A DNA stretch of 20,602 bases from a virus. The stretch is taken from positions 1 through 20,602 of IMG/VR virus record IMGVR_UViG_3300042478_001659; one strand, given 5' to 3'. Positions 1,115 to 20,602 of this stretch are shown in pieces (positions within the stretch are counted from its first letter, which is position 1; each line of letters opens with the position of its first letter). Made by a program: the position numbers and the translations under genes. Below the pieces are notes generated by a model. It did no database searches, was not told the origin of the DNA, and saw only the letters and a list, made by a program, of their open reading frames with translations.

Positions 1115-1124
1115 GGAAAAATAA

Positions 1125-6404: not shown

Positions 6405-6577
6405 TAAGAGACGAAAGATCGAGAGCACTTATCAACGATGACCTGGCTGCTCTAAATAAATACAAAGTAGACAGGGATCGAGTGAGAAAGATAGAACAAA
6501 TCTATAAAGAGTTACCAGAGATAAGAAGAGTTCTTTCTTCCTTATGTGAAAGATTAGACAAGATAGAGAGCACATAA
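6401..6577 (+). CDS. Small charged helical protein (58 aa)
   Basis: An ATG at 6401 overlaps the stop of the DUF4815 gene in an ATGA arrangement and gives a 58-residue frame ending in TAA two bases before the next ATG, filling an otherwise empty gap exactly. The product starts MIRDERSRALINDD and is rich in Lys, Arg, Glu and Leu with heptad-like spacing (IEQIYKELPEIRRVL, LCERLDKIE), so it is probably one or two helices or a short coiled coil. No signal peptide or membrane segment is present. I do not recognise a family. Its coupling to the DUF4815 gene and position before a fibre gene suggest a small assembly factor or minor virion component, which is inference. The exact fit between two genes is the main evidence that it is real. 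Confidence 0.75.
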   Translation: MIRDERSRALINDDLAALNKYKVDRDRVRKIEQIYKELPEIRRVLSSLCERLDKIEST

Positions 6578-6579
6578 AC

Positions 6580-7602
6580 ATGGCAAAAACCGGTATAAGT
6601 CAGGTCACTACTTCGGACACGTTTCAACAATGGTTGGATAGGACCAACGACTTAGTAGATATAGTGAGTTCCGATGCTATGACGGCCTCAGCATTAGGCG
6701 ATACCACAACTGGTAATTCGACTCTGATTGGATCGTTCACTGCAAATACTGTGATTGCATTTAATACTTTGCGCGCTAATACCTTATCTCCTAAAGTAGG
6801 ATCGTCAGCAATAGAAGTTACGTCACCTGTAACAATTAATACACCAACACAAACGATTCAAACTCTTATAAGCACGAACGCACCTAGAGTGAATTATTCA
6901 AATGCTTCCGTGATATGGCAAGTTGGCTTTGAGTCAAACGCAAACACCAGTTTTATAGTTGACACTGGATCGGGAACTAGAAAACTTTCTGTATCTCCAT
7001 CTGGCGATCTTACTATTGCAGGAAATATGAATGTTGGAAACAATCTTGTTGTTGATAATAACCTTACTGTAACTGGAACGATAACTGGAAATATTTCTGG
7101 TGCAGTGACTGGAAATATAACTGGAAACGCAGCCACAGTCACAAACGGTGTATACACGATTGGCAACCAATCAATTGCTGGCATTAAGACATTTACTAAT
7201 AACACACCGAGTACTAGTAGGACGACTGGTTCTGTCGTCATCACGGGCGGTCTAGGTGTAAGCGGAGCTATTAACGCAGGTGGCGAGATCACGGCTTTTG
7301 CTACTTCTGATAGAGAATTGAAAACAAATGTAGAAAATATTACAGACGCTCTATCAAAGATTGAAAAACTGAATGGTGTTACTTTTAATTGGAATGACTT
7401 AGCTAAAGAAGTTGAGAGTAAAGATACTAGTGTTAAAGAAGTTGGTGTCATCGCTCAAGAAGTAAACCAAGTATTACCGGAAGTCGTAACAACTCGAGAA
7501 AACGGATACATGGCTGTTCGTTATGAAAAATTAGTACCGCTATTAATCGAAGCGATTAAAGAACTTCACGAAGAAATAAAAACTTTGAAGAATGGTAGTT
7601 AA
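6580..7602 (+). CDS. Fibre-like protein with C-terminal S74 chaperone domain
   Basis: This is a 340-residue protein. Its N-terminus (MAKTGISQVTTSDTFQQW) looks like the particle-binding end of short marine phage fibre proteins. The middle (about residues 140-235) is a run of short beta repeats of the form TGNI/TGAV, followed by the VVITGGLGVSGAINAGG pattern that often precedes S74 domains. The last 98 residues are a Peptidase_S74 / intramolecular chaperone domain: Ser243 in TSDRELKTN, with Lys248 five residues on, then GVIAQEVNQVLPEVV and a C-terminal helix. In this family (endosialidases, phage GA-1 neck appendage) the domain drives trimer folding and then cuts itself off at that Ser using a Ser/Lys pair. 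Both residues are present, so release of a roughly 11 kDa chaperone is expected. The start is fixed by the upstream stop two bases away. A role as tail fibre, whisker or appendage cannot be told apart. Confidence 0.85.
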   Translation: MAKTGISQVTTSDTFQQWLDRTNDLVDIVSSDAMTASALGDTTTGNSTLIGSFTANTVIAFNTLRANTLSPKVGSSAIEVTSPVTINTPTQTIQTLISTNAPRVNYSNASVIWQVGFESNANTSFIVDTGSGTRKLSVSPSGDLTIAGNMNVGNNLVVDNNLTVTGTITGNISGAVTGNITGNAATVTNGVYTIGNQSIAGIKTFTNNTPSTSRTTGSVVITGGLGVSGAINAGGEITAFATSDRELKTNVENITDALSKIEKLNGVTFNWNDLAKEVESKDTSVKEVGVIAQEVNQVLPEVVTTRENGYMAVRYEKLVPLLIEAIKELHEEIKTLKNGS

Positions 7603-7674
7603 AACTCTTTGTTCTCTAAATATCATGTTGGTATTTCTTCGATATAAATAAAAGAAAAAGGGATCTCGACAACC
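7603..7674 (+). other. Intergenic gap carrying a late promoter
   Basis: This 72-base AT-rich stretch is the largest clean gap within the structural region. It holds an exact TATAAATA (7643-7650) and a weaker CTAAATA-like variant near 7616. A purine-rich AAAGGGA lies about a dozen bases before the next ATG and is a rather distant ribosome binding site. No stable hairpin was seen. Confidence 0.6.
7643..7650 (+). promoter_or_regulatory. T4-type late promoter (TATAAATA)
   Basis: The octamer TATAAATA matches the late promoter consensus used by T4-like phages with the gp55 sigma factor and gp33/gp45 system. It lies about 25 bases before the ATG of the 854-residue fibre protein, in a true intergenic gap, and transcription would start a few bases downstream. 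In AT-rich DNA about one exact match per strand is expected by chance in a window of this size, so location is the main support. Confidence 0.65.
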
Positions 7675-10239
7675 ATGTCTAAAATATCCGAACTTGGTAA
7701 AATTACCGGCGGTAATACAAAATCCAGAGACTTGTTTGTAACTGTCAGCCTCGATCAGGGCGACGACGGCACGAAGAATATTACTCGTGCCGAACTAGTA
7801 AAAGCTATTCAGCAAGAAGTTTTTACTAATATAAAGATTAATGGCGGCGATTATATTCAAAACATCCCGCTTACAAACGTAACGATTACGGGCTCGGTCA
7901 TCAACACTTCTACGATGAACAACTCGACTATCAATACGTCGGTGTTGAATAACTCGGATATTAATAACTCTGACATAGACGAATCCGATATCACGAACTC
8001 TACGATGGAATCATCCGTCATTAACATTTCAACTATGAATGCGTCGTTTATTAACGCATCGATACTAACAGACGTTATCATAGACGATTCAACTATAAAC
8101 GACGCAATTATAAATGATTCCACTATAAACGACGGGATCATAAATGACTCAACAATAAACGACCCGAACATTAACGTTGATGAAGCATTTGCTCCTGACA
8201 TATCAAATACGGATTACTTCTATCTTAAGGACGTTTCTTTAGGCAGAACTGTCGCGATCTCTTACGAGGATCTATACAAAGAGATATCTAAAACCGCAAA
8301 GAAAGCAAACAAAGTATACGTCGGTGTTGATGGAGATGATACGAACCCAGGAAGTTATCTAAAGCCAGTTGCAACTCTCGCGCGGGCATTCGAACTTGCA
8401 CAAGAAGCTGCGGCCGGTGGTATACCTTCTGGTTATCCTGGAGATAACAGCCCAGGCATCCCAACGGCGATTACCGTTTTTCCTGGCGACTATTACACAA
8501 ACGGAAACCTTTCTCTTCCGGATCGTTGCACGATGGTGTCGACAAACGGACAGTATGCAACTCGTATCATTCAGAACCCTGGATACGAAAGAGAAAACGT
8601 CATACTCATAGGATCTGGCTGCTATGTTCAAGGTTTTTCTTTCTTTAATAATATTGTTGATAACTTTGACTATCCGTCTAAAGGGTTCGCTTTTTCGTTC
8701 CGCCCTGGTGCTAAAATCATTCGTTCGCCATATTTAAGAGACTGCAGTCAGATAGCGAACTACTTTGGAAGAGAGATCCCTCCTCTATTAAATCCATTCA
8801 ACAGCCGTGGTACAATTGAGGATCTAGGATACGAGGTAGAAGTTACCGGAGTTACCGGAACTTGGGAAGTTGACGACCTAGTTACGGCTAACAACGGCGT
8901 AACAGGATATGTGTCAAGAGTCACCGAGATTGGATCTGGAACGATATACATCAGAAACAATAGCGATGATCTTGAAGTTGGGTCACTCATTACATCTTCA
9001 TCCGGCGGAACGGCTATCATTGATGCAGTTCTAGAAGAAGACTATCCTAACAAAGAAGTAGGAAGAGGTGGGGGGACTGTACTCGCAGACCGAGCATTAG
9101 TCGACCAAGACTCAATCTTCCCATACATACTTTGCTTTGGTGTTACACCTAGAACTCAGAATGGTTTGGGTTATGTTGCGAAGAATGGCGCAGGTATTAA
9201 TGGCATCAGCTCTCTTTCCATCTTCTCGCGCTGTGCGTTCTATTCTCTAAACGGCGGTCAGATTACTCTAAACAACTCTGGTACTCAGTTCGGCGACATA
9301 TCTATGCGCGCGAAGGGATCTACTCCGGTCCAAAACCCTAGATTAACGACCGCTACTCTTGTAGAGAACGACGGTCTTGCAGATGAAATACTCGCAGGCG
9401 CAAACACAATCATAGACGACATGTGGGACTATCTAACGATCACTGAAGGGTATTCTGCAAACACTGTAAACGAAGAACTTACTCGTAGAGATGCTCTAAA
9501 CTTTATACGTTCTATCACAAACGATTTTCGTGAAGGTACACAAACAGGAACTCGTATATTTACAGCTGGCCTCTTTAATTATGAAGGAAGACATGTATTC
9601 TCGGTGTTTAATCCAAACACCGATGGCTTAAGATACATAGGAAGCGTAGCTACTGTTGGAGCTCTACCTAGTGGAGTTACGGTAGAAGTAAATGATGCGT
9701 ATGTTGTATATACCAGTGTATCAAATATCTATGACGGAGACGTCTACTACTGGGATGGATCTGCGTGGACTAACGACGGGCCAAATGATATAACTCTTCT
9801 TAACGCCTTTACAGATTCGTTTACTCATATGGGTGACTATATTAAGATAAACTTTACACTAACCGCCACAGAAGAAAATATGGTTGACGGTCTTGTAGAT
9901 GACGTCCTCATAGCAAGCTTAAGAAATCCTCGCATTCTTCGTTTCGGTAGCCTCGTAGAGAGTCTCTCACACCAGTTTAACCTCGCAAGTGCAGGCGTTA
10001 ACGTTAACGCGCTTCCACTTAACTTCAGAAGACTTGGCCAGCCTATATCAGCCGCTGCATCTGTTCTTCAAGAAGATGGTGGAAGAGTACGTTGGTCTGG
10101 AGCCGACGAACTAAATAACCAGTACTTCGCTAGAGGTCTTAAAATTAACGGTCGTACCGGAAGAATTGAAGGAAGGCCATTCACATCATCTGTTAGAAAA
10201 CTAGCTCGTAGAGCTTCGCAAAGTAGGGCATCAATATGA
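7675..10239 (+). CDS. Fibre-like protein: pentapeptide-repeat stalk plus pectin-lyase-like domain
   Basis: The 854-residue product has three visible parts. Residues 1-65 (MSKISELGKITGGN ... RDLFVTVSLDQGDDGTKNITRAEL) resemble the N-terminal capsid- or baseplate-binding part of marine phage fibre proteins. Residues 70-164 are nineteen back-to-back five-residue units of the form x-(I/M/L)-(N/D/T)-x-S, a pentapeptide-repeat pattern that predicts a square right-handed beta-helix. From about residue 205 (KVYVGVDGDDTNPGSYLKPVAT) begins the pattern seen at the start of pectin-lyase-like beta-helix domains, running through the Asn/Gly-rich middle to about residue 500. The C-terminus (NQYFARGLKINGRTG, then a basic tail) has no S74 domain. 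Such proteins bind or degrade host surface glycans, but no catalytic residues can be named here. The late promoter lies just upstream. The stop overlaps the next start in ATGA. Confidence 0.8.
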   Translation: MSKISELGKITGGNTKSRDLFVTVSLDQGDDGTKNITRAELVKAIQQEVFTNIKINGGDYIQNIPLTNVTITGSVINTSTMNNSTINTSVLNNSDINNSDIDESDITNSTMESSVINISTMNASFINASILTDVIIDDSTINDAIINDSTINDGIINDSTINDPNINVDEAFAPDISNTDYFYLKDVSLGRTVAISYEDLYKEISKTAKKANKVYVGVDGDDTNPGSYLKPVATLARAFELAQEAAAGGIPSGYPGDNSPGIPTAITVFPGDYYTNGNLSLPDRCTMVSTNGQYATRIIQNPGYERENVILIGSGCYVQGFSFFNNIVDNFDYPSKGFAFSFRPGAKIIRSPYLRDCSQIANYFGREIPPLLNPFNSRGTIEDLGYEVEVTGVTGTWEVDDLVTANNGVTGYVSRVTEIGSGTIYIRNNSDDLEVGSLITSSSGGTAIIDAVLEEDYPNKEVGRGGGTVLADRALVDQDSIFPYILCFGVTPRTQNGLGYVAKNGAGINGISSLSIFSRCAFYSLNGGQITLNNSGTQFGDISMRAKGSTPVQNPRLTTATLVENDGLADEILAGANTIIDDMWDYLTITEGYSANTVNEELTRRDALNFIRSITNDFREGTQTGTRIFTAGLFNYEGRHVFSVFNPNTDGLRYIGSVATVGALPSGVTVEVNDAYVVYTSVSNIYDGDVYYWDGSAWTNDGPNDITLLNAFTDSFTHMGDYIKINFTLTATEENMVDGLVDDVLIASLRNPRILRFGSLVESLSHQFNLASAGVNVNALPLNFRRLGQPISAAASVLQEDGGRVRWSGADELNNQYFARGLKINGRTGRIEGRPFTSSVRKLARRASQSRASI
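7882..8166 (+). repeat. Nineteen pentapeptide units in the fibre protein
   Basis: Translated in frame, residues 70-164 split without gaps into TITGS, VINTS, TMNNS, TINTS, VLNNS, DINNS, DIDES and so on to TINDP. The second position is nearly always Ile, Met or Leu and the fifth is usually Ser. The last units alternate IINDS with TINDx. Pentapeptide repeats fold as a four-sided beta-helix with the hydrophobic residue pointing inward. Confidence 0.85.
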
Positions 10240-10661
10240 CATATAGCATAGTTACAACAAGCCAAGCGCCTGACGCAAAGCCAATTGGTCTAAGCGTAAC
10301 CTTAACTGACGACTGGGAGACTATTATTGAAGTTCCTAGTTTTGAAGTACCCGAATTAGTATTCGGCGGCGACACCGTCGTCGTTCCCGGGGTGGCAGAA
10401 ATTATCAGTCCAATGATTATCACTAATATTGATGTTCAGACTGTAGATGTAAGCGTAAGAATATACAGAGCAAGTTCTAACACGTCATTCATAATAGCTA
10501 ACGAACTACCAGTTCCTGCGTTTGATGTTCTTCCACTTCCATTAAACGGTCAGTTCATATACACTGGAGACACGGTTGATGTAAAAGCATCTATAAATGG
10601 GTCAGTAAATGTAACAATATCCTACACAATAGGACAAGCGGAGCAGGATGATGTCGCTTAA
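10236..10661 (+). CDS. Small beta-rich virion protein (141 aa)
   Basis: The product has no Cys, no signal peptide and no membrane segment. It reads as a beta sandwich: DDWETIIEVPSFEVPE, then IITNIDVQTVDVSVRIY, VPAFDVLPLPLNGQFIY, a GDTVDVKASINGSVNVTISY strand pair, and a short acidic tail. This layout (a Leu/Val-Pro strand, an ITNID strand, then GD-x-V-x-V-x-A and a final V-x-ISY) resembles a small structural protein often found next to fibre genes in marine T4-like phages, in my recollection. It overlaps the previous gene by ATGA and the next gene by about a dozen bases, so translation is probably coupled through all three. A role as a fibre cap, adaptor or head decoration is possible and cannot be separated here. 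Confidence 0.75.
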   Translation: MTYSIVTTSQAPDAKPIGLSVTLTDDWETIIEVPSFEVPELVFGGDTVVVPGVAEIISPMIITNIDVQTVDVSVRIYRASSNTSFIIANELPVPAFDVLPLPLNGQFIYTGDTVDVKASINGSVNVTISYTIGQAEQDDVA

Positions 10662-13620
10662 GACAGTAAGAGGAAGAACACCTATAATAGGACCCGGTAT
10701 TAGGCAGTCCTACCCTATCGCTCTAGATCCTGGTGTATACGAAGGCTCGATTGTTTATGCAAACACAGATTCTTCAAACACTAGTATTATGTACTATTCT
10801 GATGGTTCTGATTGGATAGAAATCGGGATATCAGTCCAGGGTCTTCAAGGTCCACAAGGTCCACAAGGAGTACAAGGTGTACAAGGTAACTTTGGCCCTG
10901 CGATTAAAATCATCGGTGAGGTCGCAGATGTAAATGCTAACACCAACCCAGACGGCCTTCTTTCAGCTTTCTTTCCATCAGCGCTAGTTGGCGATACGGT
11001 TGTTGACCAGGCATTAGATGAACTATGGGCTTATATCGGAAATGACGATTGGTTAAACCTCGGCCCGTTTAGAGGTACACAGGGTATTCAGGGACCGCAG
11101 GGACCGCAAGGAGTTCAGGGTAACCAAGGTAACCAAGGTCGTCAGGGTAACCAAGGTACACAGGGTACTCAAGGTAGACAAGGCGGGCAAGGTTTACAAG
11201 GCGAAACTGGAACTCAGGGTACTCAAGGTAGACAAGGAACCCAAGGTACTCAAGGTCGGCAGGGTACTCAAGGATCGCAAGGTCTGCAGGGTATTCAGGG
11301 TGTAGGTGCAACTGGTGCTGCTGGCTCACAAGGTGTTCAAGGTATTCAGGGTTCTTTAGGCAATCAGGGTATTCAAGGACCGCAAGGGACACAAGGCACC
11401 CAGGGATCACAGGGTATTCAAGGTCTTCAGGGTACACAGGGTCGTCAAGGAACTCAAGGAACTCAAGGTCTTCAGGGTACACAAGGAACTCAAGGTCTTC
11501 AGGGTATTCAAGGTACTCAGGGTATACAAGGACTGCAGGGAACACAGGGACGTCAAGGTATACAAGGTCTTATCGGTCCATCCATTAATCTTATCGGTTC
11601 TGTTGCAGACGTAAACGTAGCTCCGCCTAACAATCCACAGACTACTCTAAACGCAGCATTTCCAAGCGCAACTGCCGGAGATGCAGTTATAGACGAGTTG
11701 GAAGGAGATGTTTGGGCGTATAACGGAACTACGTGGACAAACGGAGGCCAGATCAAAGGTCCTCAGGGTACGCAAGGTCGTCAAGGGACACAGGGAACTC
11801 AAGGAACTCAAGGTCTTCAGGGTATACAGGGAACACAAGGAAGACAAGGTACTCAAGGTATCCAAGGTCTTCAAGGTATACAGGGAAGCCAAGGTAGACA
11901 AGGTATACAAGGTATACAGGGAATTGGAACCCAAGGTTTACAAGGACAGGCCGGCGCAGCCGCCAATCAAGGTATTCAAGGTACGCTTGGTATCCAAGGC
12001 GCTCAAGGAATTAGCATTCAAGGTGCGACTGGCGCTGCTGCTTCTCAAGGTCTTCAAGGTTTGCAAGGAACTTTTGGTAATCAAGGTCTTGCCGGACAGG
12101 CAGCTGCGCAAGGTATCCAAGGTCGAACTGGAACACAAGGATTCCAGGGCCTTCAAGGTAGACTTGGAAACCAAGGCATTGAAGGAGCCGCGGCTGCTCA
12201 AGGTATTCAAGGCACGCAAGGTCTTCAAGGTAGACTTGGAAACCAAGGCATTGAAGGAGCTGTGGCTGCTCAAGGTATTCAAGGTAGGCAAGGCGGGCAA
12301 GGCATTTCTGGAACCGGCACTCAGGGAAATCAAGGTATTGCAGGTGTAGTCGCCGCTCAAGGTTTCCAGGGTAGGCAAGGTACAACGGGTGGCCAAGGAC
12401 TACAGGGTCTTGTAGGAACAGGCGCAACTGGTGCTAGCGGCGATCAAGGTATTCAAGGTACGCAAGGGTTCCAGGGAAGACAGGGTACGCAAGGGTTCCA
12501 GGGTATTGCTGGATCGGGTGCAACTGGTGCAACTGGTTCACAAGGTATTCAAGGTACGTTTGGTATCCAAGGTCTTAGCGGCTCAGCTACATTCCAAGGT
12601 TTCCAAGGTAACCAGGGTACTCAAGGTATTGCTGGAACCGGTAATCAGGGTATCCAAGGTCTTACTGGTGCTGCCGCAGCGCAAGGTTTCCAGGGAAGAC
12701 AGGGCGTCCAAGGTATACCTGGAGAAGGTAACCAAGGTTTCCAAGGTACTGCCGGTACTGTCCAAGGTTTCCAAGGTAGACAAGGTACACAAGGCATTAG
12801 CGGAGCTGGTAGTCAAGGTATTCAAGGTCTCAATGGTGGTGCAGTTGCTCAAGGCTTCCAAGGAAGCCAAGGTATTCAAGGTCAAGACGGTGGAGCAGTA
12901 GCGCAAGGCTTCCAAGGTCGTCAAGGTACTCAAGGCATTCAAGGTACTCTAGGTACACAGGGTACAACAGGGTCTGGCTCTCAAGGATTAACCGGAACAA
13001 CTGGCGGACAAGGGCTTCAGGGTATTCAAGGGAGACAAGGTACAACAGGATCCGGTTCTCAAGGATTGACCGGAACAGCGGGTAGTACTGGTGTACAAGG
13101 TACCGCGGGTGTTCTAGGATCGAACGGATTGAACGGTTCGCAAGGCATTCAAGGTAGACAAGGAACTACTGGTACACAAGGCTTGGCCGGACCATCTAGC
13201 ACAATCAATGCAGCAGACTCGACGTCTTCTACGGTTCACTACCCAGTCTTTGTTGCCGGTTCTGGAAGCGACCAAACAGCAAGAGTAAGAACTACAGCCA
13301 CAGCGTTCTCATTCCAACCATCAACCGGAAACCTAGCCGTCGGTGGAAACGTAACAGCTTATTCTGATGAAAGACTTAAGACGAATATTCGCACAATCGA
13401 TAGCGCTCTTGAAAAAGTTGATCTAATGAGAGGTGTGTATTTCGAAAGAGACGGAAAGCAGAACGTAGGTGTGATCGCGCAGGAAGTTGAAAAGATACTC
13501 CCAGAAGTAGTTCATGACATAGGTGAATATAAATCAGTAGCGTATGGTAACATAACAGCCGTTCTTATTGAAGCTGTAAAGGAGCTATCTGCTCGTCTAG
13601 ACGAAGTTGAGAAAAAGTAG
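10648..13620 (+). CDS. Collagen-like fibre protein with S74 self-cleaving chaperone
   Basis: This 990-residue protein has an N-terminal binding part (residues 1-63, including PIIGPGIRQSYPIALDPG), then Gly-x-Gln collagen-like triplets in three blocks (about 64-84, 143-309 and 371-847). The blocks are separated by two copies of a roughly 60-residue domain (about 85-142 and 310-370), each carrying IGxVADVN ... FPSAxxGDxVxD ... WAY. After a Ser/Thr-rich linker comes a C-terminal S74 domain: Ser906 in YSDERLKTN with Lys911, then GVIAQEVEKILPEVV and a last helix. The chaperone should trimerise the chain and then cleave itself off, matching a trimeric collagen-like rod. Triplets carry Gln or Thr/Arg rather than Pro, as usual for phage collagens without hydroxylase. 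Two ATGs lie together (10648 and 10651); GGAG at 10640-10643 is spaced better for the second. The gene overlaps the previous one. Most likely a long tail fibre or appendage. Confidence 0.9.
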   Translation: MMSLKTVRGRTPIIGPGIRQSYPIALDPGVYEGSIVYANTDSSNTSIMYYSDGSDWIEIGISVQGLQGPQGPQGVQGVQGNFGPAIKIIGEVADVNANTNPDGLLSAFFPSALVGDTVVDQALDELWAYIGNDDWLNLGPFRGTQGIQGPQGPQGVQGNQGNQGRQGNQGTQGTQGRQGGQGLQGETGTQGTQGRQGTQGTQGRQGTQGSQGLQGIQGVGATGAAGSQGVQGIQGSLGNQGIQGPQGTQGTQGSQGIQGLQGTQGRQGTQGTQGLQGTQGTQGLQGIQGTQGIQGLQGTQGRQGIQGLIGPSINLIGSVADVNVAPPNNPQTTLNAAFPSATAGDAVIDELEGDVWAYNGTTWTNGGQIKGPQGTQGRQGTQGTQGTQGLQGIQGTQGRQGTQGIQGLQGIQGSQGRQGIQGIQGIGTQGLQGQAGAAANQGIQGTLGIQGAQGISIQGATGAAASQGLQGLQGTFGNQGLAGQAAAQGIQGRTGTQGFQGLQGRLGNQGIEGAAAAQGIQGTQGLQGRLGNQGIEGAVAAQGIQGRQGGQGISGTGTQGNQGIAGVVAAQGFQGRQGTTGGQGLQGLVGTGATGASGDQGIQGTQGFQGRQGTQGFQGIAGSGATGATGSQGIQGTFGIQGLSGSATFQGFQGNQGTQGIAGTGNQGIQGLTGAAAAQGFQGRQGVQGIPGEGNQGFQGTAGTVQGFQGRQGTQGISGAGSQGIQGLNGGAVAQGFQGSQGIQGQDGGAVAQGFQGRQGTQGIQGTLGTQGTTGSGSQGLTGTTGGQGLQGIQGRQGTTGSGSQGLTGTAGSTGVQGTAGVLGSNGLNGSQGIQGRQGTTGTQGLAGPSSTINAADSTSSTVHYPVFVAGSGSDQTARVRTTATAFSFQPSTGNLAVGGNVTAYSDERLKTNIRTIDSALEKVDLMRGVYFERDGKQNVGVIAQEVEKILPEVVHDIGEYKSVAYGNITAVLIEAVKELSARLDEVEKK
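10900..11074 (+). repeat. Collagen-interrupting domain, copy 1
   Basis: This segment codes for about 58 non-collagen residues starting KIIGEVADVN, with FFPSALVGDTVVD and LWAYIGNDDW, and ending LGPFRG just before triplets resume. It matches a second copy at 11578-11757 in order, length and key positions. Confidence 0.8.
11578..11757 (+). repeat. Collagen-interrupting domain, copy 2
   Basis: This is the second copy of the same domain, with NLIGSVADVN, AFPSATAGDAVID, VWAYNGTTW and GGQIKG. It has diverged clearly from copy 1 at the DNA level, so the duplication is old. Confidence 0.8.
12151..12294 (+). repeat. 72-base tandem duplication in the collagen-like gene
   Basis: Two adjacent 72-base units (24 residues each, GLQGRLGNQGIEGA ...) begin at 12151 and 12223. 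Their first 38 bases are identical and the rest differ at only a few positions. This is far closer than any other neighbouring repeats in the gene and points to recent slippage or unequal recombination. Confidence 0.85.
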
Positions 13621-13632
13621 ACTTATTGAATT

Positions 13633-14805
13633 GTGATAAATTTATTTCGCGATATTCCTTCTTCAAAACCAAACTTCTACTTTCTCGCGAACGGATCTAA
13701 GTTTTATAATAACGTAGAAGCATTTTCAGAAGCAAGTAAGAGAAGAGACTCTAGGATAGAGTTTGTTCTTGACTATGACGTGTATCGTAATCCGCAGGCA
13801 TGGAGAGTAGAACCTCTTCTTGAATCTAAAGACTATTTCAGGAAGCACGCAAGAATCCTTGCGGAAAAGTATGATGACATTACGATTCACTACAGTGGAG
13901 GAACTGATAGTCATACAATACTCGATGCATTTATAGATGAAGGTATAAGAAATGTTAAACTTTGGCATAGAGCCGGGTTTGGTTTCGAAGATTTTAATCC
14001 AAAAATAAAACTCTTTGGACAGATTCGTGATACTCTTATGAGTAAATACAGCGAGAAGTTAAAGCAACTCAACTACACGGTAGAAGGTTTAGACAAACCG
14101 AATTATCTTGCACCAAACGACCCGGCAGAATGGAGACTTGCTCTTGAGAATTTCGTAGGTGATTATCGTACTATGGTTAAGTTACCGGAATCTATAGGCC
14201 AATATCACTCAAGACACAAGAGAGTGAATAAGACTAAACCGCGATCTTGTATGATATGGGGATTAGAAAAACCTCGTGTAACTTTGGTAAACGGAGATTG
14301 GTTTTGGGCTACTAATTCTGGAATGTGGTGGCAATATGATACTCCATCATCTAATGACTACGATACAATCTTCTTTTTCTCTACTGACGACGTCCCAGAA
14401 ATACAGATAAAGCTCGCGTGGCTTAAGATATCAGCGATTGAAAGTATTGTCAAGGCACGTGGAAATATTAGTAAGAGCGAAGCAGAAAAACTTGTGAGTG
14501 AAGTTCAACACTTTTCTAGTTCTTACTATACACTTATAAATGAATCAATGGGATATAAAGCCTTGAGTCATGTATTGAATGGAAATTATTGGAGAGCGAG
14601 TCCAGATTATTCCGGATGGTTAAAACATCTTCATTTAAAAAGAGAAAAGATTGGAATTATTCGAGAAACTCAGCATTTCTTTGAAGAAGAAATATCTAGA
14701 AGAGTTGACGCAAGATACATAGATGAAGAAAATAAAACATTAAATTCGATTCCTTCTAGGTCCATATACATAAGAAAATCCACTTTAGAGTTAAGAGATA
14801 GTTGA
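13633..14805 (+). CDS. PP-loop ATP-pyrophosphatase-like protein
   Basis: The 390-residue product carries SGGTDS at residues 88-93 after a beta strand (DDITIHY) and before a helix (HTILDAFIDEG), which is the PP-loop that binds ATP pyrophosphate in the adenine nucleotide alpha hydrolase superfamily. Such enzymes adenylate a substrate before amidation, thiolation or ligation. The usual subfamily marks are missing: only one Cys (Cys206) is visible, so the four-Cys zinc site of QueC and the CxxC pairs of TtcA are absent, and no PAPS reductase ECGLH end is seen. Later it has a Trp-rich block (NGDWFWATNSGMWWQYDTP) around residues 220-240. The start is a GTG 12 bases after the collagen-like gene with no clear ribosome binding site, but no in-frame ATG lies before the PP-loop. 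One base separates its stop from the TctA start, so the two are probably co-translated. The substrate is unknown. Confidence 0.7.
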   Translation: MINLFRDIPSSKPNFYFLANGSKFYNNVEAFSEASKRRDSRIEFVLDYDVYRNPQAWRVEPLLESKDYFRKHARILAEKYDDITIHYSGGTDSHTILDAFIDEGIRNVKLWHRAGFGFEDFNPKIKLFGQIRDTLMSKYSEKLKQLNYTVEGLDKPNYLAPNDPAEWRLALENFVGDYRTMVKLPESIGQYHSRHKRVNKTKPRSCMIWGLEKPRVTLVNGDWFWATNSGMWWQYDTPSSNDYDTIFFFSTDDVPEIQIKLAWLKISAIESIVKARGNISKSEAEKLVSEVQHFSSSYYTLINESMGYKALSHVLNGNYWRASPDYSGWLKHLHLKREKIGIIRETQHFFEEEISRRVDARYIDEENKTLNSIPSRSIYIRKSTLELRDS

Positions 14806-14806
14806 A

Positions 14807-16138
14807 ATGATAGAAATGGTTGTTTCTTTTCTTGTTGCGACCTTCTTTGGCGTCTTGTCCGGATTGATACCAGGAGTGTCCGTGTTTGTGACGCTGTCTC
14901 TAATGTATCCGTTTCTAATGGGAATTGACCCAGCAAACGCGTTAGCAGTATATGTAGTAGTTGCAAGCCTGAGCCAATACTTTGGATCTGTGTCAGCAAC
15001 TATCTTTGCTGTCCCTGGTTCTATGACATCCATTCCTTCGTTAATCGAAGGTCACGAATTGTTTCGTCGTGGAGATGGTGATAGGGCAATAATGTATGCA
15101 GCGATAGGAAGCTTCATAGGATCTCTTCTCTCTATCATGGTGTCGTACATCTTTATTCAGTATAGTTACTATATGTTCTCTATGTTTGATACGCGCATAA
15201 AAATGCTGCTTACTTTTCTGTGTCTAATAGCATTTATAGTAGTGAGTAAGAATAAGTACTGGATCAGTTGCGCATTTATAATCTTGGGTTTTATCTTAGC
15301 GCACGTCGGGATGGATAAAAATACAAACACCGCATTTCTTACATTTGGTAACAATTATCTGTTAAGCGGGCTTCCTACAATCAGTGTCGTCTTAGGAATA
15401 TACGTAATACCGTATATCCTAGATCAACTTGAAGTAGGCTCAAGAAAGATAGTGATGAATAAGTTGCAACTTTCAGGTTATGTTGTGTCGTTTAAGAATA
15501 TGTTACAACATTGGGGAGTTGTAGTTCGTGGATTCTTGATAGGTTATGTATCCGGGTTTATACCAGGAGTTACGTATCATCTTGGAACAACACTTGCGTA
15601 TCTACTCGAAAAAAGAATAAAAAAGAAACAAAACAAGTATCAGGTTGGTGATATAGACTGTCTTGTTGCGGCCGAGACTGCAAACAACGCAGGTGTTTTT
15701 TCACAAATAATTCCTTTATTTCTCGTAGGTCTTCCAATTACTAGTACACAATCTTTTATATATAGTATAGTCGAGAGTAAAGGAATACATATAACAACAA
15801 ACTTCTTCTATCACATGCTTCCTTATATGATGGTTGTCTATATGCTTAGCGCGATTATCGGCGTATTCATAGCAGGAAAGTATGTAAATTGGATAAGAGT
15901 TTTTTCAAGGATAGACTTTAGATACATATATATCTTTATTATTGCGATGCTCTTTGTCGTCGCGTATATTACTGGATCTATGTATGGTCAGTCCGTGTAC
16001 TATGTAGTACTTCTTATAGCTTTGATACCAATTGGTTATCTGCTCAAGAGTTACGATAGAACACCAATAGTCTTTGCATTTCTGCTTCACGACATGCTGT
16101 ACTACAGCATAATGACATTCAACGCTCTATACTTATGA
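14807..16138 (+). CDS. tctA: Tripartite tricarboxylate transporter permease, TctA family
   Basis: This 443-residue membrane protein shows the two-half layout of TctA. The first half has GVLSGLIPGV (Gly19-Val24) followed by an Ala/Val/Tyr-rich segment, GSVSATIFAVPGSMTSIPS, and EGHELFRRGDGDRAIMYAAIGSFIGS. The second half repeats the glycine motif as GFIPG (250-254), then AYLLEKRI, and the family hallmark AAETANNAG (Glu290-Gly296) with IIPLFLVGLPIT. I count about ten to twelve hydrophobic stretches, including near 4-24, 103-123, 151-168, 185-205, 337-361, 372-390 and 394-415. TctA is the large channel of a secondary uptake system for citrate and related acids, working with TctB and a periplasmic TctC. 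At 443 residues it is a little shorter than the roughly 500 usual in bacteria. A TctC-like gene follows within 9 bases, but no TctB is visible. In a phage it would be an auxiliary metabolic gene; the substrate is unknown. Confidence 0.85.
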   Translation: MIEMVVSFLVATFFGVLSGLIPGVSVFVTLSLMYPFLMGIDPANALAVYVVVASLSQYFGSVSATIFAVPGSMTSIPSLIEGHELFRRGDGDRAIMYAAIGSFIGSLLSIMVSYIFIQYSYYMFSMFDTRIKMLLTFLCLIAFIVVSKNKYWISCAFIILGFILAHVGMDKNTNTAFLTFGNNYLLSGLPTISVVLGIYVIPYILDQLEVGSRKIVMNKLQLSGYVVSFKNMLQHWGVVVRGFLIGYVSGFIPGVTYHLGTTLAYLLEKRIKKKQNKYQVGDIDCLVAAETANNAGVFSQIIPLFLVGLPITSTQSFIYSIVESKGIHITTNFFYHMLPYMMVVYMLSAIIGVFIAGKYVNWIRVFSRIDFRYIYIFIIAMLFVVAYITGSMYGQSVYYVVLLIALIPIGYLLKSYDRTPIVFAFLLHDMLYYSIMTFNALYL

Positions 16139-16146
16139 GGTAAAAT

Positions 16147-16974
16147 ATGATTAAATACATCACAGCGCTCTTTATGATGATTTCTACACCGCTCTACGCA
16201 AACGAATTAGTTCGCATCATAAATCCATACAATCCAACCGGAGCTGCCTTTAAACTAGGAAACTATCTACACGAGTCAAACCCTTCTCTTTTTGGAAGTG
16301 TAGAAAAAGTAGAGTCCTGTGCCACAGCAGCAAGCATTCTTAAAACTGAGACTAACCCAACCATAGTAATATGGCAGCCAATTGCAGAACCTTTTTCAGC
16401 AAGTGAAGAATGTAAGGAAACACTCACAAAAGATAATTTTATCACTGTTCACATCTCTTCGTATAACTATATCTGCACAAAGAAAGATTCCGGTAAAGAT
16501 CTCGAATACTTTATAAACGGAAACGCAAAGATAGGTTATGCTATTGATTTTCTATACAAGTTATCTTTAGAAAATAATGTAAAAGCAGTACAGAGTAATG
16601 CTACGATCATTCCGTATAAGAGCGCGAATGAATATATGGCAGCTTTTGAAATAGACGAGATAGACTTTGTCTATACGACCAAGCCAAGCGATATTATGAG
16701 CTGCGTGCTGACTACAGATCCAAACAGCACTGAAATTACACCGCTAGTTAATTACAGTGATGACGTCTTCTCTACAGCCGGTATGAAGTTCGCATTCCTT
16801 GGAGTAAATGTTGATCTAGAAGAGATGAAGCAGGTTTTAAACGATTCTACCTCTTCAGATTCTTGGAAAGAAATGTTTAACACATATAGTCGTGAGCTTT
16901 CATTACTCGATAGAGAAGCACAGCTCGAAGCTATACAGAAAGAAGTGTCTGCCTACCAAAGTCAGGTGCAGTAA
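16147..16974 (+). CDS. Secreted periplasmic binding protein, TctC/Bug-like
   Basis: The 275-residue product begins with a classic signal peptide: MIKY, a hydrophobic core (ITALFMMISTPL), and a likely cut after LYA at residue 18. The mature start, VRIINPYNPTGAAFKLGNYL, is a degenerate version of the Bug/TctC opening in which a phosphate-like Pro-Gly loop is followed by a helix. Later come VYTTKPSDIMS and a C-terminal FLGVNVDLEEMKQVL ... SWKEMF helix, in the layout of the family's end. It is slightly shorter than the roughly 300 residues usual. Four Cys are present and could form disulfides in the periplasm. A GAGG ribosome binding site overlaps the tctA stop, so it is translated with the permease. 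The TctC call leans on this neighbourhood as well as the sequence. A different type 2 periplasmic binding protein remains possible. A strong hairpin follows the stop. Confidence 0.6.
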   Translation: MIKYITALFMMISTPLYANELVRIINPYNPTGAAFKLGNYLHESNPSLFGSVEKVESCATAASILKTETNPTIVIWQPIAEPFSASEECKETLTKDNFITVHISSYNYICTKKDSGKDLEYFINGNAKIGYAIDFLYKLSLENNVKAVQSNATIIPYKSANEYMAAFEIDEIDFVYTTKPSDIMSCVLTTDPNSTEITPLVNYSDDVFSTAGMKFAFLGVNVDLEEMKQVLNDSTSSDSWKEMFNTYSRELSLLDREAQLEAIQKEVSAYQSQVQ

Positions 16975-16984
16975 TCATATAGAA

Positions 16985-17009
16985 AAGAAGCGGGCATTGC
17001 CCGCTTCTT
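16985..17009 (+). terminator. Hairpin terminator after the transporter genes
   Basis: AAGAAGCGGGC and GCCCGCTTCTT form a perfect 11-base-pair stem around a three-base ATT loop, GC-rich at the top. It sits 10 bases after the TctC-like stop. The 3' arm ends in CTTCTT rather than a clean T run, so it may act as a weak intrinsic terminator, an mRNA-stabilising hairpin, or both. Confidence 0.75.
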
Positions 17010-17032
17010 CATACAATGAAAAGGAATACATT

Positions 17033-18058
17033 ATGAAAAGAATATTAATCACTGGCGGAGCCGGTTTTATTGCCCACCACCTCGTATGTAAAGTGCTCAA
17101 AGAGACGGATTGGGAGGTAGTTACTCTAGATAGATTGGACTACAGTGGAAACTTGAATCGCCTCCACGACTCACTACAGGAGTTCGACGCCGAAACTCGT
17201 AAGAGAGTAAGCGTGGTATTTCACGACCTGAAGGCCGACATGAACCCACTCGTTCGTTCAGAAGTAGGATCCGTAGACTACATCGCTCACCTTGCAGCAG
17301 GGTCACATGTTGATCGTTCTATCGACTATCCGATGGAGTTCGTTCTTGATAATGTTGTCGGAACGTGTAACATTCTCGAATTTGCAAGAGCGCAAAAGAG
17401 CAATCTTAAGAGGTTCATCTACTTCAGTACCGATGAAGTCTTTGGTCCTGCGCCGGATGGAATTAAGTATGGTGAAAACGATCGCTATAACTCTACGAAT
17501 CCTTATAGCGCATCAAAAGCAGGCGGCGAAGAACTTGCTGTTGCGTATGAGAATACCTACGGCTTGCCGATCTATATCACTCATACTATGAACGTCTTTG
17601 GTCAGAGACAACACCCGGAGAAGTACATACCAATGTGCATCAAGAAAGCTCGTGATGGCGAGAAGATTACAATCCATAGCGATAGAACAAAGACGATCCC
17701 GGGATCACGTCACTACATCCACGCAGAAGATGTAGCAGATGCAGTTTTATTCTTACTAAATGGGAATTTTGATCTAAAGGAAGAATGGGGTGGAGCTAAG
17801 TGCCCCAAGTTTAACATCGTCGGCGCAGAAGAGATCGATAACTACGAACTTGCAAGGATCATCGCAGACGCGCAAGGTAAGGAACTCAACTACGAGTTTG
17901 TCGACTTTCACTCGAGTCGCCCAGGCCACGATCTTCGCTATGCCCTAGACGGAAACAAGATGAAGAGTCTTGGATGGGAACCAGCCACTTCAGTCCGCGA
18001 AAGAATTGCAGAAGTAGTAAAGTGGACTCTAGAGAACGAAAGATGGCTAAAGACATAA
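17033..18058 (+). CDS. Nucleotide-sugar 4,6-dehydratase (extended SDR family)
   Basis: The 341-residue enzyme opens with the NAD-binding Rossmann motif TGGAGFIA (Gly8, Gly9, Gly11; the usual third Gly is Ala14). It has LAAGSHVDRSI near residues 90-100, STDEVFG (132-138) with the Asp-Glu pair typical of 4,6-dehydratases, and the catalytic Tyr158-x-x-x-Lys162 (YSASK). MNVFGQRQHPEKYIP and RHYIHAEDVADAV complete the RmlB-like pattern. These enzymes turn NDP-glucose-type sugars into 4-keto-6-deoxy sugars for surface polysaccharide. dTDP-glucose is the best guess from RmlB likeness, but the nucleotide is not proved. The frame is open to an ATG at 16892, but that would overlap the TctC gene and the hairpin. 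The ATG at 17033 has an AAAAGGAA site and puts the Rossmann motif at the N-terminus. It may serve phage or host glycan changes. Confidence 0.88.
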   Translation: MKRILITGGAGFIAHHLVCKVLKETDWEVVTLDRLDYSGNLNRLHDSLQEFDAETRKRVSVVFHDLKADMNPLVRSEVGSVDYIAHLAAGSHVDRSIDYPMEFVLDNVVGTCNILEFARAQKSNLKRFIYFSTDEVFGPAPDGIKYGENDRYNSTNPYSASKAGGEELAVAYENTYGLPIYITHTMNVFGQRQHPEKYIPMCIKKARDGEKITIHSDRTKTIPGSRHYIHAEDVADAVLFLLNGNFDLKEEWGGAKCPKFNIVGAEEIDNYELARIIADAQGKELNYEFVDFHSSRPGHDLRYALDGNKMKSLGWEPATSVRERIAEVVKWTLENERWLKT

Positions 18059-18063
18059 GTTGT

Positions 18064-18071
18064 GATAAATA
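18064..18071 (+). promoter_or_regulatory. Late-promoter-like motif (GATAAATA)
   Basis: GATAAATA differs from TATAAATA only in the first base and lies in the 45-base gap after the dehydratase, 32 bases before the ATG of the 55-residue gene. Placement between a metabolic gene and a structural gene fits a late promoter that restarts structural transcription. Confidence 0.5.
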
Positions 18072-18090
18072 GATACAGCTAATAGTTCTA

Positions 18091-18097
18091 AAGGAGA
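18091..18097 (+). promoter_or_regulatory. Strong ribosome binding site
   Basis: AAGGAGA six bases before the ATG at 18104 is the best Shine-Dalgarno sequence I noticed in the window. It fixes the start of the small gene that follows and probably drives the next, closely spaced gene as well. Confidence 0.75.
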
Positions 18098-18103
18098 GCG
18101 AAG

Positions 18104-18271
18104 ATGGCTGTTAAGATATCTGGAACAACCGTTATTGACGATAGCAGAAATATAACAAACATACTCACGGCAACCTCAAACACTGCCGTGATTACTTATT
18201 TGCAGGACAGTTCAAATAGAACTCTAAAGATCCTTAATGCGGCAGGAACTGTAGTCTGGGGTTCTGTATAA
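18104..18271 (+). CDS. Small fibre-module protein (55 aa)
   Basis: The 55-residue product runs MAVKISGTTVIDDSRNITNI to a TVVWGSV end. The KISGTTVIDDSRNI segment resembles a short module I know from the N-terminal ends of phage fibre and tail proteins, where it occurs joined to larger domains; here it stands alone. It has no signal peptide, Cys or membrane segment and looks like a small beta unit. It has a strong ribosome binding site and a late-promoter-like motif upstream. Its stop is one base before the ATG of a very large repeat protein, so the two are probably translated together and may act together. Adaptor or minor fibre part is inference. Confidence 0.8.
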   Translation: MAVKISGTTVIDDSRNITNILTATSNTAVITYLQDSSNRTLKILNAAGTVVWGSV

Positions 18272-18272
18272 T

Positions 18273-20602
18273 ATGGCAAGACCAAATGTCCTTACCTATA
18301 AGGGCAGTGGCATATTACAGATCATAAACGACTCTGAGTTTGAAGCGATCGCTGAAGTTGTTCTTGAAAAGTTTGCTTCTGTTGACGGGCCCGGTAACAT
18401 ATACAACGCACAAGGTGCAAACACCGCTTATGTAGCAATAGGTGATTTCACTGATACACGATATCAGGGAGCTATTGGAACTGGAGACGTTACACTTCTT
18501 TCTACAACATACACTCTTTATCAGGATAGAACGAGTAACTACGGATCTGTCACGAATCCACCATTACATTGGAACGGAACTGATATTAAGATCGCGAACA
18601 ATACAGAGCTCAACGATCTTGCCGATGCTATTATACAATATATGGTTATTGGAGATGGCCCAGGTGGTTACGTGTTAACAAGCGCCGCGCCGGCTGGAGG
18701 TACTTGGGTATCCATCGGAAGCATTAACAACGTTCAAGACACAGCAAATACTACTGTAACCACGTTATTTAAAAAGATATCGGGTACTACCACTCTTACA
18801 CACAGTCCTCTTAAACATGTATCTGGCGGAACCATTCAGATCATGACTCAGGCCGAAATAGAACAGCTAGTCGAAAAAGTAAGAGAAAGAATTATAACAA
18901 CACAGATAGGTTACTATGCATTTCAGCTAGCTGCGCCAACGCCAGGGACTTGGGCTGAAATGGGTACTATCCTTGACACAAGACCTACGATATCTGCGCA
19001 AGATTATGTAGGCCCGATATATACTTCTGATGTGAATTATACCGGTATTATTCCTATAAGCTATCTTGGCGGTTCGGACGTACCGTATGACACAGATTAC
19101 ATAGGAACATACGACACTGATTACGTTTCTTCTGTTATTGTTGGTTATGACGGTGTTGCACCGGCGGCATACACTACCACCTTTGAAGGGCCTAGTGGTA
19201 TAAACTATCTAGGTCCGGGTTTTGCAACATACGATGGAGACTATCTTGGCGGGATTGTATACGATGGAGTTGCGCCAACGAACTATGTCGGCGATTACAT
19301 CGGTCCTATTTCTTATGTCGGCGTTACACCGGCTACTTACGTAGCAGATTATGTAGGACCAGCTACGTACGTTGGTATCACTCCTATCACGTATGTGACT
19401 GGGTTTATTGGTCCAGTCACATACGTTGGACCTGCAGAGGTTACCTATGATAGTACTCGATTCGTGACAGTTAACTATCTTGGTCCGTTGGCGGACTCTA
19501 TTAACTATGCAGGAACGACTCCGGCTTCATATCTAGGACCCTCTGCGCCAGTCACATATATTGGGCCTTTGGATGGAGTTCTATATGTATCTACGGATAC
19601 GGACGGTGCTCCTTATGCATCTCAATCCGGAGTCCCAAACGTAAACTATCTTGGTCCTGGCCCGGCAAACTTTACAAACTATACGTTATTTCCTCTATAC
19701 TTAGGTCCTAGCGCAGAACCTTTCTATCTAGGAGACATTACAACTGTTAACTACCTTGGCCCAGGAGGTCCTGCTGCGAACTACACTTCGTTAGTTGCTA
19801 ACGTCACAAACTATCTTGGCCCGGGCACGGCGAATGCTATAAATTATGTTGGGCCAGGCGCAGCGAATTCTATAAACTATCTCGGGCCAGGGCCGGGCAT
19901 CACGTACGTGAGAACCAAAACATTATCATACGTTGGCCCTGGCCCGGCGAATGCTACAAACTACCTCGGCCCTGGTGCAGCTACAAGCTACCTCGGCCCT
20001 GGCGCGGATACCAACTACTTAGGCCCAGGAAACCAAGATTATCAAGGGTCGCAAAAACTAAACTTCGTAGATTATACTTCCATACCATCAATTAACTACG
20101 TAGGTCCTGCGACTCCGGATGCCATAAACTACGAGTCAGACAACGCAATAAATTATCTTGGATCTGGTGCACCAGTTAACTATCTCGGTGCCGGGCCTGA
20201 TGTTAGTTACTTGGGCCCTCTTGACGGCCCTACATATATCGGTCCAGGAACTACTCCAGACGGAGCCGGATATATTGGTATACCGGAAGTATTATATACT
20301 GCGCTCATTGCTGCAGATTATCTCGGAACAAACCCAGATGGAGCGGTTTATGATACGGTTATAGCCTATCTTGGCAACTACGCTGGATTAACTCCAGATG
20401 CTGGCAGTTATATATTATCTGTTACATACGAGAGTGAATACGCCGGTGTGACTCCCGCAAGCTACGTTGGAGTGTTAACATACGATATAGATTACTTAGG
20501 AGTGACGGCGGCAAACTATGACAACACAGTTGCTTATCTAGGAGACTACGTTGGTATTGGACCGGTGTCGTATATAAGTGAAACTACATATCTAGGACAA
20601 TT
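18273..20602 (+). CDS. Giant repeat-rich virion protein (3' end missing)
   Basis: From the ATG at 18273 the frame stays open to the end of the window, giving at least 776 residues with no stop. Residues 1-240 are a structured head: MARPNVLTYKGSGILQII, then two related blocks (APAGGTWVSIGSI near residue 140 and APTPGTWAEMGTILDTRP near 230) around TQAEIEQLVEKVRERI. These blocks resemble virion proteins of marine T4-like phages. From about residue 244 the chain is almost wholly made of Tyr-(Leu/Val/Ile)-Gly units, often NYLGPG or TYVGP, spaced irregularly by 6 to 20 residues. I count about forty before the window ends. Such regular aromatic-Gly repeats suggest a beta-structured fibre shaft. No enzyme motif was seen. 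It follows the 55-residue gene by one base. The true length and C-terminus lie outside the window. Confidence 0.85.
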   Translation, partial: MARPNVLTYKGSGILQIINDSEFEAIAEVVLEKFASVDGPGNIYNAQGANTAYVAIGDFTDTRYQGAIGTGDVTLLSTTYTLYQDRTSNYGSVTNPPLHWNGTDIKIANNTELNDLADAIIQYMVIGDGPGGYVLTSAAPAGGTWVSIGSINNVQDTANTTVTTLFKKISGTTTLTHSPLKHVSGGTIQIMTQAEIEQLVEKVRERIITTQIGYYAFQLAAPTPGTWAEMGTILDTRPTISAQDYVGPIYTSDVNYTGIIPISYLGGSDVPYDTDYIGTYDTDYVSSVIVGYDGVAPAAYTTTFEGPSGINYLGPGFATYDGDYLGGIVYDGVAPTNYVGDYIGPISYVGVTPATYVADYVGPATYVGITPITYVTGFIGPVTYVGPAEVTYDSTRFVTVNYLGPLADSINYAGTTPASYLGPSAPVTYIGPLDGVLYVSTDTDGAPYASQSGVPNVNYLGPGPANFTNYTLFPLYLGPSAEPFYLGDITTVNYLGPGGPAANYTSLVANVTNYLGPGTANAINYVGPGAANSINYLGPGPGITYVRTKTLSYVGPGPANATNYLGPGAATSYLGPGADTNYLGPGNQDYQGSQKLNFVDYTSIPSINYVGPATPDAINYESDNAINYLGSGAPVNYLGAGPDVSYLGPLDGPTYIGPGTTPDGAGYIGIPEVLYTALIAADYLGTNPDGAVYDTVIAYLGNYAGLTPDAGSYILSVTYESEYAGVTPASYVGVLTYDIDYLGVTAANYDNTVAYLGDYVGIGPVSYISETTYLGQ
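19002..20602 (+). repeat. Tyr-(Leu/Val/Ile)-Gly-Pro coding repeats
   Basis: In frame the DNA repeats TAY-CTN/GTN/ATH-GGN, mostly followed by CCN. A denser group at about 19730-20030 has near-identical units such as AACTATCTTGGCCC. Synonymous codons differ between units, so most copies are old, but the dense group shows closer DNA similarity. The repeat continues past the window end. Confidence 0.85.

Follow-up and report, generated by a model that had tools for sequence, protein, structure and literature searches.

Why would a phage carry both the membrane permease and the periplasmic binding protein of a bacterial uptake system, and do the two stand alone in its genome? The question is raised by IMG/VR record IMGVR_UViG_3300042478_001659, 20,602 bases of viral DNA that were analysed over their full length and are called the window here. 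A sequence-only reading had pointed to a gene for TctA, the large membrane subunit of tripartite tricarboxylate transporters (TTTs), directly followed by one for a signal-peptide protein with a TctC-like start. Both genes lie exactly where that reading put them, on the plus strand at 14807..16138 and 16147..16974, separated by 8 nt. A third gene, which it did not mention, precedes them in the same orientation at 13633..14805, leaves a gap of 1 nt to TctA and encodes a protein resembling PP-loop ATP pyrophosphatases. We find that the two transporter genes encode a diverged version of a known transporter in which no TctB is visible; what is new is that they recurrently occur together with this PP-loop enzyme, which is apparently virus-specific.

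The permease and its binding protein

By its sequence, the 443-residue product of 14807..16138 is a member of the TctA family. It matches PF01970, as the sequence-only reading had anticipated, with an E-value of 1.5e-69 and 235 bits (cut-off 28.9), in an alignment that covers residues 7-417 and profile positions 3-415, and it carries AETANNA at residues 289-295. The available part of a TTT review describes a duplicated TctA motif, G-Hy3-G-Hy3-G-Hy2-P-G-Hy-G, located in transmembrane segments TM1 and TM7 (PMC5812351). Both copies are recognisable in the window protein (A11-TFF-G15-VLS-G19-LI-P22-G23-V-S25 and G242-FLI-G246-YVS-G250-FI-P253-G254-V-T256), with deviations from this published consensus: the first glycine of copy 1 is replaced by alanine and its last by serine, the last glycine of copy 2 is replaced by threonine, and each copy has one serine among the hydrophobic positions. 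The AETANNA hallmark and the duplicated motif of the initial description therefore stand, with a Pro-Gly core in place of the Gly-Pro-Gly that it had named. A crude hydropathy count gives 10 segments, compared with 9-12 membrane helices in bacterial TctA. The viral TctA alignment profile matched none of the solved structures, which leaves no structure for comparison.

The 275-residue product of 16147..16974 is predicted to have a TctC/Bug fold. Searched alone, it matched nothing in Pfam (E ≤ 1, PF03401 included), PHROGs (E ≤ 0.1) or NCBIfam (E ≤ 1), and the PP-loop protein gave no useful match in single-sequence searches of the same three collections, so that both proteins had to be approached through predicted folds and alignment-based profiles. 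An AlphaFold2 model of the binding protein, built on a 28-row alignment from which three of 31 rows were left out, has a mean predicted local distance difference test (pLDDT) score of 93.5. VIA-align places eleven entries at the top, all of TctC/Bug type, from Bug27 (Z 22.0; 3.0 Å over 253 residues) to MatC (Z 17.7); binding proteins of other kinds come next, at Z 13.7 and below. A Foldseek comparison of the model likewise supports the TctC/Bug type. Consistently, the profile of the viral family matches the solved proteins TphC (3.4e-38), BugD (5e-31), Bug27 (6e-30) and MatC (1.6e-19), aided by true PF03401 members within its alignment; 10 of the 28 relatives match PF03401, the best with an E-value of 3.6e-36. 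The N-terminus is hydrophobic and signal-like and ends in YANE, as judged by hydropathy and by eye only. The proposed TctC/Bug relationship thus holds for the predicted fold and for the family profile and fails for the window protein alone; with the TctA match, it bears out the idea of a phage-borne TctA accompanied by a secreted TctC-type partner.

The window is DNA of a T4-type phage, because its positions 652-20602 (19,951 bases) are 100% identical to a segment of a separate 217,966-base IMG/VR record (G001) that carries a terminase gene at 170721-171332 and a T4-type gp23 capsid gene at 179824-180882.

Recurrence in viral DNA and cellular controls

A search with the DNA pattern of AETANNAG recovered the three-gene set from further viral records, which represent two different phages (one was recovered as two records); their identities to the window are 46 and 30% for TctA, 30 and 21% for TctC and 34 and 20% for the PP-loop protein. 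A scan of viral contigs with the TctA alignment yielded 20 loci, reduced to 16 records with 17 TctA genes once near-identical records had been merged (L035, L037, L040 and L046 were merged in this way). Three of the 16 records, L002, L029 and L041, provided the seeds of the hidden Markov models (HMMs). A PP-loop gene lies on the same strand within 1,130 nt of 16 of the 17 TctA genes, and at 12 of the 17 it overlaps TctA or sits within 31 nt of it; a TctC-like gene lies within 284 nt of all 17.

The last two TctA scans, run with frozen models as a later test, contributed ten new records. All six on the main TctA branch, two of them close relatives, have a PP-loop gene within ~2.2 kb, and all four on a second branch (L227-L230, one subclade) have a TctC gene. 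Pooled over the 26 viral records found through TctA and left after merging near-identical ones (L221 and L222 were merged into L220), a TctC-like neighbour is present in every one, so that the proposed pair recurs throughout, and a PP-loop gene lies nearby on the same strand in 21; L052 and L056 came from a PP-loop scan and are hence outside the 26. The records without it are the four of the second branch and L044, in which four PP-loop open reading frames (ORFs) lie at ~14-21 kb of the contig, 12-18 kb from TctA. These ORFs match with E-values of 1e-7 to 8e-5, and the PP-loop gene of L047, which is counted among the 21, matches at 5e-8; such matches are secure only at the superfamily level, because a cellular PF01171 protein scores 6.9e-5.

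Four gene orders occur (PP-TctA-TctC, PP-TctC-TctA, TctC-TctA-PP and TctA-TctC-PP), and the link between the PP-loop gene and the transporter therefore outlives rearrangement. The viral TctA proteins are 20-47% identical to that of the window. Of 21 viral records with TctA that were examined, counting near-duplicates, 9 have terminase or gp23 on the same contig; the remaining 12, many of them short, show neither. Copy number varies as well: a 66-kb viral record (L039) holds two full PP-loop/TctA/TctC cassettes in tandem at 1782-9596, with a ClpP gene just upstream, and on another viral contig (L229), at 2196-11293, three TctA genes and two TctC-like ones, of which one is weak, occur together with genes resembling fatty-acid desaturases.

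Four PP-loop queries gave no match in INPHARED, and thus no cultured phage with the PP-loop family was found there. A tblastn search of the same collection with the window TctA returned seven records at 21-26% identity. Among the four examined, all matched the TctA HMM, three had a TctC-like gene and none had a PP-loop gene, and two showed the ordinary order of TctC, small hydrophobic gene and TctA in bacterial-looking surroundings; for these reasons none of the four was counted as a phage cassette. Relatives of DctP, a TRAP-type binding protein, matched 14 INPHARED records and relatives of TctC matched one (MT836965, which is among the four examined).

As a cellular control, the loci of the best 80 of 369 TctA relatives were searched with the PP-loop HMM (E up to 0.01). 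The only match was in L088, a contig of 9 kb that had been assigned to 'bacterium TMED46' in binning and carries the cassette; its other genes look viral by eye, including 2OG oxygenase- and DegT aminotransferase-like genes, and it is probably a viral contig inside a bacterial metagenome-assembled genome (MAG). At an E-value of 1e-6, the PP-loop profile matched none of 385 genomes of Alphaproteobacteria, the class to which Pseudooceanicola (L090) belongs, and none of 369 of Gammaproteobacteria, the class of an Oceanospirillaceae MAG (L117), while the same profile matches the L088 genome, as a positive control, at 3.5e-47. A first scan of genome contigs with the PP-loop alignment, which gave 103 stretches and no relative, shows little because it missed the L088 gene present in that collection. 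In this survey the PP-loop family was found only in virus-like DNA and, judged from these profile matches, is apparently virus-specific.

The viral TctA genes also differ from cellular ones in their neighbours and in their grouping. A hydrophobic ORF of 100-230 residues within 1.5 kb, a crude hydropathy test for a TctB-like neighbour, is present at 62 of 79 cellular TctA loci (L088 excluded), compared with 0 of 31 viral TctA genes (19 + 12). In a tree, viral TctA proteins and that of L088 (18 rows) are split from 21 cellular rows with a support of 100/100; because the cellular rows had been selected by pattern, the split does not establish monophyly against all TctA. A larger quick tree has 28 rows on the viral side, and in it one of the three L229 TctA proteins falls to the cellular side.

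The PP-loop family and the surrounding genes

The PP-loop gene (13633..14805, plus strand) is the first of the cassette, starts with GTG and encodes 390 residues with the motif HYSGGTDSHT; we place its product in the PP-loop superfamily. Across 45 aligned relatives (five divergent rows of 50 were left out), G89, G90 and D92 are invariant and S93 is nearly so. SGGxDS is exact in 45 of 57 PP-loop proteins and present in 54 if close variants are included, with no such motif found in the other three. PHROGs matches none of the 45 family members and Pfam only one, weakly, as 'PP-loop family'; a family search of the 45 found no glutaminase match.

On its structure model (pLDDT 80.5), the protein leans towards AsnB-like amide chemistry, and we do not file it as AsnB. 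The VIA-align rows are mostly PP-loop enzymes, in which AsnB (Z 9.9), beta-lactam synthetase (9.7) and carbapenam synthetase (8.3) align over 271-294 residues, and TilS (8.3) and GMP synthetase (7.6) over ~150, so that AsnB exceeds the latter two by just 1.6 to 2.3 Z; with this method, a best Z of 7-8 is typical of models without a clear Foldseek match.

Two closely related records carry an AsnB-like gene between TctC and the PP-loop gene (L213:7236-8489 and L214:7246-8523), with matches over the cut-off to PF00733 (9.5e-9 and 2.5e-6) and matches to GATase_7 (4.9e-4 and 3.5e-6). A relative in L039 (L039:3-1100), cut by the locus end, stays below the Pfam cut-offs and matches the L213/L214 model with an E-value of 1e-51; the ClpP gene lies between it and the first cassette. 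The P-loop of the L213 and L214 AsnB-like proteins is degenerate (SSGIDAG, SAGVDAG) and stands beside an intact PP-loop gene. Such a neighbour could supply the half-reaction that is otherwise missing, as if it shared one reaction with the PP-loop protein. No AsnB-like gene was seen in the window. In another record (L062, 5306-7469), a PP-loop gene lies between genes that look by eye like IscU and IscA, which hints that some members act in sulfur chemistry; a NifU_N match fits the IscU-like call.

Where PP-loop genes occur without a detected TctA, the TctC profile matches 11 of 27 records, in some of which the match does not adjoin the PP-loop gene. Among 131 neighbour proteins, which are not a fair sample (126 were taken automatically from a length-cut list of 150 of 191 and five were added by hand), DctP is the commonest with seven, one of them hand-added. 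Six of these were tested and match PF03480 at 3e-24 to 2e-54 (L043:4987-5955, L045:7299-8237, L047:8214-9203, L059:2408-3352, L069:7174-8154 and L071:4881-5837). The DctP neighbours have no signal peptide by eye, and a cytoplasmic DctP would be odd. A DctP-like gene was also considered as part of the window cassette and rejected, as the window ORF list holds none. Other auxiliary genes near PP-loop genes encode radical SAM proteins and desaturases, and no tRNA-modification family is among the 25 of 69 neighbour families listed. Runs of several PP-loop genes, recognised with an iterated HMM, occur in L053, L059, L061, L073, L075 and L083, some of them beside desaturase-, GNAT-, acyl-carrier-, SpeD- or Rieske-looking genes; these runs suggest a biosynthetic cluster carried by large phages.

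The setting of late structural genes described for the window was confirmed. Genes for a baseplate wedge subunit and an S74-chaperone tail fibre lie upstream of the cassette, as does that of a 1759-residue protein whose relatives, annotated as VrlC, show ~30-34% identity and come from phages of Sinorhizobium, Caulobacter and Pelagibacter; a nucleotide-sugar epimerase gene lies downstream. In another phage (G005), the gene set adjoins RNA ligase and, by eye, HD/phosphoesterase-looking genes, not tail genes. Window positions 10648-13620 encode a 990-residue protein with collagen-like repeats and an end that resembles a chaperone; similar repeats recur in the 218-kb record at 147-153 kb. A protein of more than 776 residues, which lacks a PHROG match and contains many degenerate repeats of the NYLGPG type, is encoded at 18273-20602. 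Just 3' of the TctC-like stop, a plus-strand hairpin at 16985..17009 (-20.6 kcal/mol, z -5.74; none of 200 shuffles equally stable) may mark the end of the transcription unit; it is absent from the terminator scan output and, without a long T run, is not a textbook intrinsic terminator. Scans for T4 late promoters (34 matches compared with 35.5 expected, hence no signal) and for sigma-70 promoters (8 compared with 14.3) gave no excess over expectation.

Possible function and known systems

AsnB-type enzymes activate carboxylates. Because of this, and because the substrates of bacterial TTTs are mostly organic acids in the available part of the review (PMC5812351), the uptake of a carboxylate followed by its ATP-dependent activation is the simplest joint reading of the three genes. 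We tentatively favour this account, in which they form a phage-specific import-and-activate operon whose substrate, direction and chemistry we infer. During infection, the TctC-like protein would bind a small carboxylate in the periplasm and pass it to the phage TctA, and import would be driven by an ion gradient, perhaps with a host TctB. The PP-loop enzyme would adenylate the imported carboxylate, spending ATP and releasing pyrophosphate, and the activated carboxylate would be coupled to ammonia or an amine, probably giving an amide, much as in asparagine or beta-lactam synthetase; in some phages the nearby AsnB-like protein could provide the ammonia. The product would serve infection, either as a nitrogen or amino-acid supply or as a modified small molecule. 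A more specific version strikes us as possible but still more doubtful: large T4-like and other uncultivated phages may share a virus-specific module that joins a TctB-less TctAC to a new class of AsnB-like synthetase, makes an amide that the host does not supply, and occurs in at least four orders, in tandem copies and in permease-less versions with TctC or DctP.

Several observations weigh against an import-and-activate operon. No TctB-like gene was seen at any of the 31 viral TctA genes, although the review reports TctB to be essential in one characterised system (PMC5812351). None of the four second-branch records has a PP-loop gene in the ~11 kb of DNA covered for each, and 27 viral records, some of them near-duplicates, have PP-loop genes without a detected TctA, as expected of an enzyme independent of the transporter. 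The records are not all independent either, since DNA similarity is shared within L033/L036/L038/L039, L213/L214, L227/L230 and L032/L034. As to the chemistry, PF00733 matches none of the 45 family members, which makes AsnB unassignable by sequence; a Z of ~10 is modest, at a root-mean-square deviation of 5-6 Å and 7-10% identity; Foldseek finds nothing below an E-value of 0.001 for the model, its best entry being the sulfur transferase LarE; and HHalign aligns only the P-loop region of the family, with P-values of 5e-5 for TilS and 1.5e-3 for AsnB.

The sequence-only reading had suggested that the pair feeds the host tricarboxylic acid cycle. This now looks less likely: no TctB gene is seen, and the usual company of a PP-loop gene (21/26) suggests import coupled to ATP-dependent activation more than simple feeding. 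A broader form, in which TctA and TctC import citrate or a related acid to supply the host with energy and carbon, with the PP-loop gene as an uncoupled auxiliary gene of the same modular island, is in our view unlikely, albeit a serious contender. The TctA-TctC pairing is universal among the viral records, the PP-loop partner is not, PP-loop genes also occur without a detected TctA and near radical SAM proteins and desaturases, and the organic acids listed in the review (PMC5812351, in part) suit plain uptake; yet hitchhiking would hardly keep the two genes overlapping or within 31 nt in 12 of 17 cases, across four gene orders and TctA identities of 20-47%, nor retain the PP-loop gene in six of six new main-branch records. 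The other early suggestion, diversion of a host transporter by the binding protein, loses force where the phage also encodes TctA and fits those records that combine PP-loop and TctC-like genes without a detected TctA. Somewhat less probable than plain uptake is that the PP-loop protein acts in sulfur transfer or in RNA or nucleotide modification, like LarE, TtcA or TilS, with the transporter supplying a precursor or being unrelated. The Foldseek and HHalign results lean that way, as do the IscU/IscA-like surroundings in L062 and the family HMM, which reaches a cellular PF01171 protein (L204, 6.9e-5) and 0 of 11 AsnB-type proteins. The full-length structural alignment instead favours AsnB and the beta-lactam and carbapenam synthetases, AsnB-like genes lie nearby in three records, and tRNA-modification families are missing from the neighbour families listed.

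Host-range functions often cluster near tail-fibre genes. The window cassette comes after such genes, and its membrane and periplasmic proteins might accordingly block or mimic a receptor and exclude superinfecting phages. We regard this as improbable: the set in G005 has no tail genes beside it, the conserved transporter motifs and ligand-binding fold point to transport, and a cytoplasmic ATP pyrophosphatase has no obvious part in exclusion. A misassembly of bacterial and phage DNA, or a false viral call, is very unlikely, to the point of being negligible. TctA is common in bacteria and the related contig L088 was binned as one, but the identical context in the separate 218-kb phage record, the terminase or gp23 genes on 9 of 21 records and the fully supported split of viral from cellular TctA all speak against it.

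If an import-and-activate operon is indeed what these phages encode, they carry one unit in which a permease and a periplasmic binding protein are coupled to an enzyme that uses ATP, and infection would change bacterial uptake and render the product immediately usable. It would offer a concrete target for testing, with one ligand and one enzyme reaction. The survey also adds an apparently virus-specific PP-loop family that is unrecognised by PHROGs and barely recognised by Pfam, and provides a context for a lone earlier report in which tctA was noted on viral contigs.

That report, the sole prior primary mention found, agrees with the initial remark that the pair is not a well-described phage function: tctA was listed as a putative auxiliary gene on SUP05 marine viral contigs, with its role stated as unknown (Roux et al, 2014; PMC4164917), and a review table repeats it (PMC6359870). 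In the parts of the paper available, tctA is a domain match only and the contigs were called viral by non-reference methods; 'tctC' is absent from the main text, and the tctA passage names no PP-loop gene (PMC4164917). The window shares with these contigs a tctA on viral DNA and adds the TctC-like and PP-loop genes. No phage PP-loop/TctA/TctC cassette was named in the literature covered, which left out most subscription-journal papers and bioRxiv preprints.

Compared with known systems, the closest relative of the transporter is tctCBA (TC 2.A.80), for example the Salmonella citrate system, with which the viral cassettes share the TctA profile, the duplicated motif and an adjoining TctC-type gene on the same strand. 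They differ in having no visible TctB (the 4-TM subunit), in their PP-loop gene, in a very divergent binding protein and in TctA proteins that form their own group in trees. The binding protein resembles TctC, Bug, TphC and MatC in its predicted fold over 250-256 residues (Z 17.7-22) and its signal-like N-terminus, and departs from them in its 9-14% identity, its length of 275 residues and the failure of a single-sequence PF03401 match. The PP-loop protein recalls AsnB and beta-lactam synthetase in its SGGxDS-type motif, in its closest global fold and in the AsnB-like genes nearby in three records; unlike them, its family matches neither PF00733 nor a glutaminase, and profile similarity is confined to the P-loop region. 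Finally, marine phage PstS, as presented in the available part of a review (PMC6359870), is likewise a virus-carried binding protein for host nutrient uptake, to which the window adds a permease of an organic-acid family and a PP-loop enzyme.

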